The notes below the pieces were generated by a model that saw nothing but the letters and a program-made list of their open reading frames with translations, ran no database searches and was not told where the DNA came from. From Alphaproteobacteria bacterium (GTDB lineage: Bacteria; Pseudomonadota; Alphaproteobacteria; Geminicoccales; Geminicoccaceae), in assembly GCA_026982705.1 (NCBI GenBank), contig JALSGP010000006.1:1-64000 (forward strand): a stretch of 64,000 nt of DNA, written 5' to 3'. Each line of letters begins with the position of its first letter. The first letter of the stretch is position 1. Shown here piece after piece: positions 1-6,450 of the stretch. Position numbers and translations under genes: made by a program.

Positions 1-1917
<1,917 letters not shown>

Positions 1918-1949
1918 GCCGGGCCGGGCTTCGGGCATGTCAACTTTGG

Positions 1950-1975
1950 GGGATCCGGCCGCGCAGCCGGATCCC
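1950..1975 (+). terminator. Probable intrinsic terminator of clpB
   Basis: A perfect 10-bp stem, GGGATCCGGC (1950-1959) with GCCGGATCCC (1966-1975), closes a 6-base loop 33 bases after the clpB stop. The tail CTCATCATTA is only weakly T-rich. It marks the end of GC-rich core sequence, since the AT-rich patch starts about ten bases further on. Confidence 0.75.
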
Positions 1976-1984
1976 TCATCATTA

Positions 1985-2750
1985 CATCAAATCTCTGGAA
2001 TCGTAGGGAAAATATCGATCAATTCATCGTTATACATGGGCGTCTTATAAAGGAATCTCTTTCGGACCTTGAAGAGGTTTGTGCCAATCCATTTTTCTCC
2101 ATCCCAGTGTTCGGTTTCCTTCATTAATTGTATCTTGATAAAACACTTGATGAGTCCGCATATAATATCAGTGATTTGAATTAACTCGGAATTCTTTGAA
2201 TCAATGGAAGTTATTGACTCTGCAATTGGGTTGGTCATACTTTCTCTTTTTATTTTCTTGCAAAATGCAAATTTGCGCAAATTTGACAAATACATCTATG
2301 GCCGTCAAGAACCAATCTTCCGGTTGTTTTTCTAAGGAGTTACTAGATTCAGACTATTTTATATGATTGATATACGTACCGCATCTATCCATATCAATTG
2401 CCGAAACTGCAATATTATGGATAGTAACAAATTTAACGAAAATTTTCTAATGATCTCCTTATATCTTGATCATCTACATGTTTATAAGCGGCCCCGAACT
2501 TTAATTCAAAATACAGATTTACCTCTCCATTTTATTTATTTTTATGATATGAACAATTTCTACGATTATTGCTTTAGCCTCTCTCTGCGCCTTTGGGTAT
2601 CGATATGCATCGATAATAATACTTGCAAAGACCACGAGGGCGTCGTTCCCTCCACCAATACCAGTTTCATAGCAAAAGGCGAGCTTCATTTTATTAACCC
2701 TTCGACGATCTGTTGCAGGCGTGTTTATATCATGCTGTCCAGCCTCCCGC
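1985..2750. other. AT-rich island of apparently foreign base composition
   Basis: About 765 bases between clpB and the Uma2 gene are visibly AT-rich, with runs such as TTTATTTATTTTTATGATATG, inside a chromosome that is otherwise strongly GC-rich. The edges are sharp: GC-rich sequence ends at the clpB terminator and resumes near 2740. The only gene-like content is the shattered DUF3800 gene on the minus strand. No flanking direct repeat, integrase or tRNA was seen at the edges. The composition points to recent transfer from an AT-rich donor (inference). Confidence 0.8.
1987..2689 (-). pseudogene. Shattered DUF3800-family gene
   Basis: Pieces of one DUF3800 protein can be read in successive minus-strand frames. 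The N-terminal piece starts at ATG 2689-2687 (MKLAFCYETGIGGG, then VVFASIIIDAYR) and stops at 2519. The middle is carried by shifted frames (YFELKFGAAYKHVD; KFVTIHNIAVSAIDMD). The C-terminal piece, in a third frame, contains DSKNSELIQITDIICGLI and ends at 1987. That is at least three frameshifts plus stop codons. The usual DUF3800 motif is D-E-S/T-G; here the Asp has become Tyr (CYETG), so even the N-terminal piece has lost an expected active-site residue. An AAGGG element precedes the ATG. The family assignment comes from motif order by eye. DUF3800 genes are frequent in mobile DNA, and the function is not established. Confidence 0.65.
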
Positions 2751-2779
2751 CAACCCCCGCCATGGCCTGCGCTGGGCGG

Positions 2780-3394
2780 ATGGCCTATCTTGCGGAGCGG
2801 GACGGACCGGGAGCAACGCCCGTGGCCGAGCCCGCCGAAAGGCTCATGACCGTCGCCGAGTTCCTGCGCTGGGACGACGGTACCGACCGCCGCCACGAGC
2901 TCGTGGGCGGCCGGCCGGTGATGATGGCCCCGCCCTCGCGCGTGCACGGCGCCCTGGCGCTCGCCATCGGCGCGGAGCTGCGCGCCCGGCTGGCACCGCC
3001 GTGCCTGCCGCAGGTCGAGGCCGGCATCGTCTTCCCGCACGACGATTTCGATTTCTTCGTCGCCGACATGGCGGTGAGCTGCGCGCCGCCCGCGGACGAG
3101 CTCTGGTGCCCCGAGCCGGTGCTGCTCGTCGAGGTGCTCTCGGAGAGCACCCGTGCGCACGACCTCGGCGTCAAGCTTCCGGCCTACCGGCGGCTGCCGT
3201 CGGTGCGGCACATCCTGCTGGTGGAGACGCGGGAGGTGCGGATCGAGCACTGGCGTCGCGAGGGCGAGGGCTGGCACGTACGGGACGTGGGCCCGGGCGG
3301 CGTGGTGGTGCTGGAGGATCTCGGCGTGCGGCTGGAGGTGGATGCACTCTACCGGGATCTGCCGGTGGGCGGCAGTGGCGAGGTACCGTCGTGA
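2780..3394 (+). CDS. Uma2 family (DUF820) endonuclease-like protein
   Basis: A protein of about 204 residues of the Uma2/DUF820 family, which has a PD-(D/E)XK-type nuclease fold and is often found in accessory DNA. Family features are the N-terminal MTVAEFL..D..RRHELVGGRPVMM, a central FFVADMAV strand carrying the acidic residue, and the signature LLVEVLSESTRAHD followed by KLPAYRRLPSVRHILLVE, with the E-x-K-type residues. ATG 2780 is preferred; ATG 2762 and ATG 2846 are in frame. The frame stays open upstream to 2363, but that part is AT-rich island sequence and is not credible as protein. The cellular role of single-copy Uma2 proteins is unknown. A broken relative lies on the other strand at 3955-4135. 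Confidence 0.8.
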   Translation: MAYLAERDGPGATPVAEPAERLMTVAEFLRWDDGTDRRHELVGGRPVMMAPPSRVHGALALAIGAELRARLAPPCLPQVEAGIVFPHDDFDFFVADMAVSCAPPADELWCPEPVLLVEVLSESTRAHDLGVKLPAYRRLPSVRHILLVETREVRIEHWRREGEGWHVRDVGPGGVVVLEDLGVRLEVDALYRDLPVGGSGEVPS

Positions 3395-3594
3395 GGTCCT
3401 GGCGCGTTTCCTTGAGGCGATGGCATCCGATGCCTTCTGGCCGGCTCCTTCCTTGTACGATCGAATGCGAGCTGCGGGCGATCTCGGATCCGGACAGCAC
3501 CGTGGCGACGGTGTGAGCGGATTCGGCCCATGGCACCCGGCCAACCCCGAGCTCCCCCGCCGAGGTCCGAGGCCGGCCTTCCGAGATCCGAAGC

Positions 3595-3800
3595 CCAGAG
3601 GCCGGCCGATGCCGGCGCACATCACCCGCGGCAACCGCACCCGCCGGACCGTGCACGGGCTCCTCGAGCACGTCTTCGCCGCCCTCGAACGGCGCTTCCG
3701 CTTCCGGATCCGCTCCATCGGCCCGGCCCGGGCCAAGGCCCACATCGCCCTCGTCAACCGCACCCGGCTCGTCTTCCGGGAGACACGACTCGCGTGGGCC
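3595..3800 (+). pseudogene. IS5-type transposase C-terminal remnant
   Basis: The frame around ATG 3609 reads NRTRRTVHGLLEHVFAALERRF, then IRSIGPARAKAHIALVN and RLVFRETRLAWA. This is the pattern of the DDE transposase C terminus in IS5-related elements (R-x-R-V-E-H-V-F-A-x-x-K ... IRTIGLARA ... ANLAYN ... RLVWLE). The Glu of LEHVF would be the third catalytic acid. No N-terminal two thirds, start codon or terminal inverted repeats were found, so this is a leftover of an insertion sequence. The AYN part of the usual motif is missing, which may be a small in-frame deletion. Confidence 0.6.
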
Positions 3801-3954
3801 GAGTCGGCCCGGATTCCACGGATGGCGCCCGAAGGCTCCGCCAAACGGAGCCGAAGGGACGGAAGGCGGGCGGAAACACACGTCTCGCCACCGCTCCCGA
3901 AGCCGACGATCTCGCAGGCCTCCCGCTCCCCATCCCGATGGCCCCGACGGGGCG

Positions 3955-4135
3955 GATGAGGAGAGCCGTGGTCTCGTCCACCCGCACCGTCGTCCCGTCG
4001 GGACAGATCTCGCAGGGAAGTCCACGGCCCTCGCGGCCTCGGCCAGCAGGCGGGCGATATGCAGCTTCACCCGCGCGTGGACGGCCCCCTCGGGCGGCCA
4101 TGGCCACCACCTCCCGCCCCTCCAGCGGCGCGTGA
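3955..4135 (-). pseudogene. Frameshifted Uma2-family remnant
   Basis: Reading leftward from 4135 the minus strand gives LEGREVVAMA in one frame, PEGAVHARVKLHIARLLAEAARAV in the next, and LPCEICPDGTTVRVDETTA back in the first. Joined, these match the N-terminal half of a common Uma2 subgroup (V-A-M-x-P-E-x-A-x-H-A-R-V-K-L ... LPCE-x-x-P-D-G-x-T-V-R-V-D). Two compensating frameshifts and the lack of a catalytic C-terminal half mark it as dead. It is not a copy of the intact Uma2 gene at 2780, whose residues differ. Confidence 0.6.
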
Positions 4136-4236
4136 CACCCCGGCTCGCGTGCACCCGGCGTACCGTCACGCACGCGACGCCGCCGGCGGCTTTACGGTGG
4201 CGGGCGGCGCGTCCAGCCTTGACGGTGGAGGTGCGC

Positions 4237-6450
4237 ATGTGCGGATTCGCCGGCTTCCGCCGCTTCGACCGGCCGCTCGAGGCCGCCCACGACGGCCGCA
4301 TCGTGCGGGCGATGACCCGCAGCCTCGCCCACCGCGGACCCGACGACGAGGAACTCCTGCTGGAGAGCGAGGCGGGAGTTGCCCTGGGCTTCCGCCGTCT
4401 CGCCGTGATGGACCCGTCGCCGGCCGCGCGCCAGCCCATGCGTTCGGCCTGCGGCCGCTACGTGCTGGTCTTCAACGGCGAGATCTACAACCACCGCGAA
4501 CTGCGGGCGGAGCTGGAGGCCCTGGGCCACATCTTTCGCAGTCGCGGCGACACCGAAGTCCTGCTGGAATGCTGTGCCCGCTTCGGCATCGAGACGGCGC
4601 TGCGGCGAGCCAGCGGCATGTTCGCCCTGGCCCTCTGGGATCACCGCGAGCGCCGCCTCGTCCTCGCCCGCGACCGTTTCGGCAAGAAGCCCCTCTACTG
4701 GGGGCGGCTCGGGGATCTCCTGCTGTTCGCAAGCGAACTGCGGGCCCTCCTCCACCACCCCGAGTTCAGGCCGGCGCGCGATCCCGAGGCCGTCGCCCTC
4801 TATCTGCGCTTCGGCTATGTGCCGACGCCGCGCGCCGTCCTCGCCGGCGTCGAGAAGCTGCCGGCGGGTGGCATGCTGGTGGTCGAGGCGGACGGCACGA
4901 CACGCCGGATGCGCTGGTTCGATGCCGTGGCCGAGGCCGAGGCGGCGGTGGCGGACCCGCTCGACGGCGACGAAGAGGCGCTGCTCGACCGCTTCGCCGC
5001 GCTCCTGGAGGACTCGGTGCGGCGGCGGCTGGTGGCCGACGTGCCCGTCGGCCTGTTCCTCTCGGGCGGTCTCGACAGCACGCTGGTGGCGGCGCTGGCC
5101 GCCCGCGCCGACCCCGGACTCGAGACCTTCACCCTCGGCTTCGACGATCCCGCCTTCGACGAATCCACCCATGCCGCCGCCATCGCCCGCGCCCTCGGCC
5201 TCGTCCACCGGGTCGAACGCATCCCGGCCCACCGGCTGCCGGAGCTGGTCCACGATCTGCCGCGGGTGTGGGACGAGCCCTTCGCCGATCCCTCGGCGCT
5301 CCCCACCCTCGCCCTCTGCCGCTTCGCCCGCACGCGGGTGGTGGTGGCCCTGTCCGGTGACGGCGGCGACGAGCTGTTCGCCGGCTACCGTCACTATGCC
5401 GACGTCCTGCGCCTCCACCGCCGGCTCGCCCGCCTGCCGCGCCGCCTCGCCCGGCTGGCCCGGGCGCCGCTGCGCCTGCTGGACGGGGCGCTGCTCACGG
5501 AGCTGGGACGATGGCTGCCGGCGGTGGCGCGGCTGCGGCCGGACGAGCGGGCGGGGCGCCTGGCCGAGGTGCTGGGGGCGGAGCCGGAGACCCTGATGCG
5601 CATCCTGGTGGGCCATCACGACCGGCCGGAGCGCATCTATCCGCTGGCCGCCGGCATGCCGCCACCGATGTGGCGGGAGGGCGTCTCGCGACGCATCCGC
5701 ACCCTGCCGGAGCGGCTGCAGCTCCTCGACCTGCTCCAGTGACTGCCGGACGACATCCTGGTCAAGATCGACCGCGCCTCCATGAGCTGCGGCCTCGAGG
5801 TGCGGGCGCCCTTCCTCGACGAACGGGTGGTGCGCTTCGTCTGGCGACTGCCGCCGTCGTCGCGCCACGACGGCCGGCGCGGCAAGGTGCTGGTGCGACG
5901 GCTGCTGGCGCGCCTGCTGCCGCCGGAGCTGTGGACGCGCCCCAAGCACGGCTTCGCGCCACCGTTGCACGACTGGCTGCGCGGTCCGCTGGCGCCGCTG
6001 GTGGAGGACCTGCTGACGCCGGACTCGCTGCGCGCCGCCGGACCGTTCGACGTCGCGCGCGTGCGGCGACTGTGGGAGGAGCACCGGGAAGGGCTGGTGG
6101 ATCGCCGGTTCGAGCTGTGGAACCTGCTCGCCTATCTGCTCTGGTATCACAACGCCTTCCGCACCGAGGCCTGCCGTCCGCATGGGGTTCCGCGCAAGAC
6201 GGTTCGAGCGGACGGCCTCGCCGGCGCGGATCAGGAAAAGGTGCCGAGCGGCAGTTCGAGGTGCACGGGCCCTGCGGGTTGCCGTTCGATCAGACAGAGA
6301 CCCACCTGCCCGAGGTCGACCGACAGGGCGACGCGCTCGTGCCGCCGGATGGTCTCCCAGGCCCGACGCATGCCGGCCGCCAGGCGATGTCGTCGAAGAG
6401 CAGCACCGCACGCTCGGCGAGGTGTGGGAGGAACGCCCGGAAATAGGTGA
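4237..6450 (+). pseudogene. asnB: Asparagine synthase (glutamine-hydrolysing) with in-frame TGA
   Basis: AsnB makes asparagine from aspartate, ATP and glutamine. ATG 4237 follows GGTGGAGG and places the catalytic Cys at residue 2 (MCGFAGF). The glutaminase domain (RGPDDE) is followed by the synthetase domain with the PP-loop SGGLDST (about 279-285) and GDGGDELFAGY. At codon 502 the frame has TGA (5740-5742), then resumes exactly in frame with LPDDILVKIDRASM and LEVRAPFLDERVV, where relatives have a Tyr-Leu-Pro-Asp-Asp sequence. Homology fades near 6165, but the next in-frame stop is only at 6448-6450, inside the antisense methyltransferase, so the native stop also seems lost. A truncated 501-residue product would lack part of the synthetase active site. 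A sequencing error at the TGA is possible. Confidence 0.8.

Follow-up and report, generated by a model that had tools for sequence, protein, structure and literature searches.

A probably transferred and decayed DUF3800 gene in an AT-rich patch between clpB-like and Uma2-family genes of an alphaproteobacterium

Failed gene transfer and the DUF3800 family

Horizontally transferred genes that failed in their new host and turned into pseudogenes are common and have been described as a class (Liu et al., 2004, PMC522871). What the genes treated in that account have in common with the locus presented here, a short AT-rich patch in a member of the Geminicoccaceae, is an alien composition together with a disabled reading frame. 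A patchy distribution, and absence at this site from a close relative, are also seen here, and the difference lies in the source, as neither a donor lineage nor a close intact homologue of the patch was found in the limited collections searched.

The protein domain involved, DUF3800 (PF12686), defines a poorly understood family and is predicted to adopt an RNase H fold with a catalytic rearrangement (PMC10910872). Our locus resembles this family in its C-terminal part, which scores above the Pfam cut-off, and differs from it in that its N-terminal motif is uncertain and no single frame spans the domain, which makes it a remnant rather than a working member. The feature is real and ordinary, best read as a transferred-gene failure of known type, and we consider it very likely that foreign AT-rich DNA entered between clpB and a Uma2 gene and that its DUF3800 gene has since become a pseudogene.

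The AT-rich patch and its neighbours

The window, meaning the whole stretch of 64,000 nucleotides that was analysed, has a GC content of 72.3% and belongs to a draft assembly of 2.66 Mb in 48 contigs. An abrupt change of composition at both ends of the patch had been noticed in the first-pass annotation, and it is borne out by a GC profile and by a two-break maximum-likelihood fit (log-likelihood gain 116), which places the breaks at 1976 and 2733 with 35.6% GC between them and 72.2% on either side. Moreover, in a sample of the host genome made up of the window and 20 further stretches (417,077 bases, about 16% of the genome), the patch contains the lowest-GC 300 bases, while no other 300-base stretch falls below 45% and the next lowest, in L099, stands at 45.0%. 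The contrast is real, and rare in the examined part of the genome. The features of the region are as follows, the bit scores being those of Pfam models or of a profile HMM of DUF3800 proteins.

1-1917, plus strand: left neighbour, the 3' portion of an unbroken clpB-like gene; open frame with its stop at 1915-1917
1947-1978, plus strand: GC-rich inverted repeat from a repeat search, a putative terminator
1976-2733, no strand: AT-rich patch, 35.6% GC, from the likelihood fit and GC profile
1987-2295, minus strand: C-terminal DUF3800 remnant, a 102-aa open frame; PF12686 24.1 bits, HMM 22.8 bits
2204-2353, minus strand: possible middle piece in frame 0, after an in-frame TAG; assigned by order only
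2357-2446, minus strand: possible middle piece, read in frame 0 up to the TAG at 2354-2356; assigned by order only
2436-2531, minus strand: possible middle piece in frame 2; assigned by order only
2522-2689, minus strand: possible N-terminal piece, 56 aa from an ATG; HMM 1.0 bit at model positions 3-45, within shuffle noise
2821-3394, plus strand: Uma2-family gene, unbroken, right neighbour; PF05685 79.2 bits

The left neighbour, which we take to be clpB from motifs in its sequence, has counterparts of 82-90% DNA identity over the whole or almost the whole of 1-1917 in G002, G018, G004 and G016. The inverted repeat behind it is probably the terminator of this gene rather than the end of a mobile element, and at the patch itself no mobile-element ends or target duplications were seen, only short repeats of the kind expected by chance. 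A search for a further copy of the patch in the host genome, in which 8 of 197 first-look candidates were scored, returned no match. At gathering score Rfam yielded nothing save one tRNA 7 kb away, and its matches at E≤10 were at chance level, so that none of the DUF3800-linked RNA families of Rfam was matched.

On the right, the start region of the Uma2 gene is conserved in the same-genus genome G001, and the GTG at 2821, shared with that genome and preceded by GGGAGC, is the probable start codon. The plus-strand frame of this gene remains open upstream, antisense through the patch, as far as an ATG at 2363 (2363-3394), hence an automatic gene caller might wrongly lengthen Uma2 at its N-terminus. 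Farther downstream, an asnB-like gene (4213-6150, plus strand) carries a lone in-frame TGA at 5740-5742; the copy in the closest relative, G003, is 65% identical along almost its whole length and is free of stops, and the TGA marks either a young pseudogene or a sequence error. Fragments lying downstream of the site in both the window (3530-4135) and G002 (contig L077, 4644-5144) presumably resemble transposase remnants; no transposase was matched in them by Pfam.

What is left of the DUF3800 gene

DUF3800-like segments had been read on the minus strand of the patch. A six-frame search of the host's own genome did find such similarity, with PF12686 at 25.3 bits on the minus strand in a single place (Pfam gathering cut-off, 21 bits). 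The 102-aa frame by itself reaches 24.1 bits (E 6.4e-5) and the read-through protein of all pieces 25.4 bits; by these scores, nearly all of the DUF3800 similarity rests on the open C-terminal piece, 1987-2295. In an HMM built from 34 DUF3800 proteins, the same piece obtained 22.8 bits, while the patch shuffled 200 times reached 5.3 at most. Each of the 34 input loci (34/34) yielded a protein with E≤1e-3, and two of these proteins were incomplete (123 and 143 aa); L024-L028, which are short or fragmentary family matches, as well as L046, the same gene as L018, had been excluded beforehand. Given the fact that stop-free runs of at least 103 codons occurred in 35 of 1000 patch shuffles, the length of the frame alone is weak evidence, and it is the domain match that carries weight. 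A clean coding pattern is not seen when GC is split by codon position: in the C-terminal piece GC3 is 0.44, and the first two positions each stand at 0.30.

Beyond Pfam, the sequence found no match in NCBIfam and nothing worth noting among solved structures. The same C-terminal stretch weakly matches PADLOC PDC-M04A (E 4.8e-5) and PDC-S51 (E 4.5e-4) and PHROG 3732 (E 2.5e-4), a likeness that probably reflects only the common C-terminal motif of DUF3800. The PADLOC name PDC-M04 drew no mention in the literature searched.

The N-terminal and middle pieces lie on the same strand and in the expected order, but their scores are not above those of shuffled DNA. The N-terminal piece is the second best of all pieces of the region in the HMM and aligns with the start of the model, though its 1.0 bit is within the shuffle range, and Pfam finds nothing in it at E≤1; the middle pieces taken singly do not match. 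If all belong to one gene, the layout passes from frame 0 to frame 2, returns to frame 0, where it meets the in-frame TAG, and ends in frame 1, that is, three frame changes and one stop, and no frame holds the complete domain. Where most of the 34 proteins have a motif of the type Y-x-D-E-S/T-G, the N-terminal piece has F-C-Y-E-T-G (2660-2677, minus strand), with a TAT codon for Tyr at the place of the Asp (2669-2671), a call that depends on the weak N-terminal alignment. The first-pass annotation had counted at least three breaks and had the conserved Asp replaced by Tyr. Of this, the C-terminal segment is significant, the layout agrees with the count and the TAT is there, while the other segments stay within noise; since they do no better than shuffled DNA, we infer the breaks and the substitution as reasonable readings. 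As the searches yielded neither a donor nor an intact near copy, the breaks are placed only approximately.

The course of events may be pictured from the sequence. A small foreign AT-rich piece would have been inserted between clpB and the Uma2 gene in this lineage, bringing one DUF3800 gene on the minus strand, whose N-terminal and middle parts would then have been cut off from the C-terminal remnant by frame changes and stops. A working product would not be expected from such a pseudogene, which presumably has lost its function.

Relatives, possible donors and other readings

The comparison with a relative lacking the patch, which had been proposed as a check, is provided by G001. Here the same clpB and Uma2 neighbours occur, with their matched ends only 74 bases apart, compared with 881 in the window: in contig L004 the clpB match ends at 1721 and the Uma2 match begins at 1796, the window equivalents being 1927-2807. 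This contig ends shortly after the junction, leaving only the start of Uma2 visible, and the empty arrangement is seen in this one genome only. The composition of the patch makes an insertion in this genome more probable than a loss from G001.

DUF3800 occurs in 8 of the 31 genomes of the host's family, the window genome included. Of the other copies, one is divided between two frames and another contains an internal stop, and the gene of G006 has 36% GC within a locus of 58%, so patchy, at times AT-rich and at times broken copies are not unusual in this family. The sole intact copy of the same genus (G003, 69% GC) shows a weak likeness at the C-terminal motif and is not a near copy. Searches by tblastn revealed no close intact relative in plasmids (with the read-through protein and two single pieces) or in phages (with the read-through protein and the C-terminal piece). 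Three plasmid matches to the C-terminal piece had E values of 5 to 8 and were taken as chance. Viral contigs and genome contigs likewise yielded no close intact relative or donor, and neither did the 385 class-level and 398 phylum-level genomes searched; these collections are limited, and a donor may exist elsewhere. The only notable match, confined to the C-terminal part, was a 236-aa DUF3800 protein of an alphaproteobacterial MAG (L018 = L046 by translation), the same protein being present in G366, of the same class, and in the MAG record L046. Further phylum matches had E values of 0.04 or more.

In G002, also of the same genus, clpB is directly followed by a different AT-rich stretch and then by decayed-looking sequence. 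Contig L077 of this genome has two AT-rich stretches after clpB (3798-4705 and 5651-6275, lowest GC 35% and 41%), the first of which has an open 110-aa hydrophobic frame that, in a search of 20 genomes, was found in G002 alone. Within 215,416 bases of G002 (2,204 masked) such stretches are scarce, namely these two, one in L119 and a mild one in L111; that in L119 (6779-9288) is an island of about 2.5 kb with a lowest GC of 39%. No clpB match was obtained in G003, which is 74% complete, and in the 19 kb taken at clpB from G016, G018 and G004 there was neither a DNA match past clpB nor an AT-rich stretch.

An AT-rich sequence directly after clpB in G002, and an empty site in one genome only, would also suit a gene already present in the ancestor of the genus, which decayed on the spot in this genome and disappeared from G001, with no recent gain. 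We regard this as improbable: the G002 patch has no DNA match to that of the window, its open frame is a different one that neither Pfam, at its cut-off, nor PHROG recognises, and the composition of the window patch is still far from that of the host. Sequence errors might be suspected in a draft genome, particularly with the lone TGA in the nearby asnB-like gene, and the DUF3800 gene would then be intact in the living organism. However, at least four errors would be needed in about 500 bases, between clpB-like and Uma2 neighbours that read through cleanly. The two genes flank the site in G001 as well, which shows that the join is not chimeric. We regard an assembly artefact as unlikely and give an intact gene hardly any credence.

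We likewise give hardly any credence to a continuing expression of the 102-aa C-terminal frame as a separate small protein. The frame is open from an ATG and keeps the family's C-terminal motif, but open runs of this length arise in the shuffles mentioned above, the single promoter-like site of the patch lies on the strand opposite the remnant (a count of 1, below the shuffle mean of 2.1), and no relative made of the C-terminal part alone occurs in the sets examined. A transferred gene now decaying, as originally proposed, accords best with the alien composition, the DUF3800 match lacking an in-frame N-terminal part, the patchy occurrence in the family and the relative without the patch; that all pieces come from one gene, their number of breaks, and gain here rather than loss in G001, we infer.

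On its own the finding is of little consequence, one more dead transferred gene, yet the example is clean: the contrast of composition is extreme, the neighbours are unbroken and a related genome is without the patch. As G002 carries a different AT-rich patch after clpB, this place may be one where short AT-rich gene islands land repeatedly in the genus, an unlikely proposal drawn from three same-genus genomes in which the site is seen, two filled (the window genome and G002) and one empty (G001), and the only part that perhaps merits a second look.
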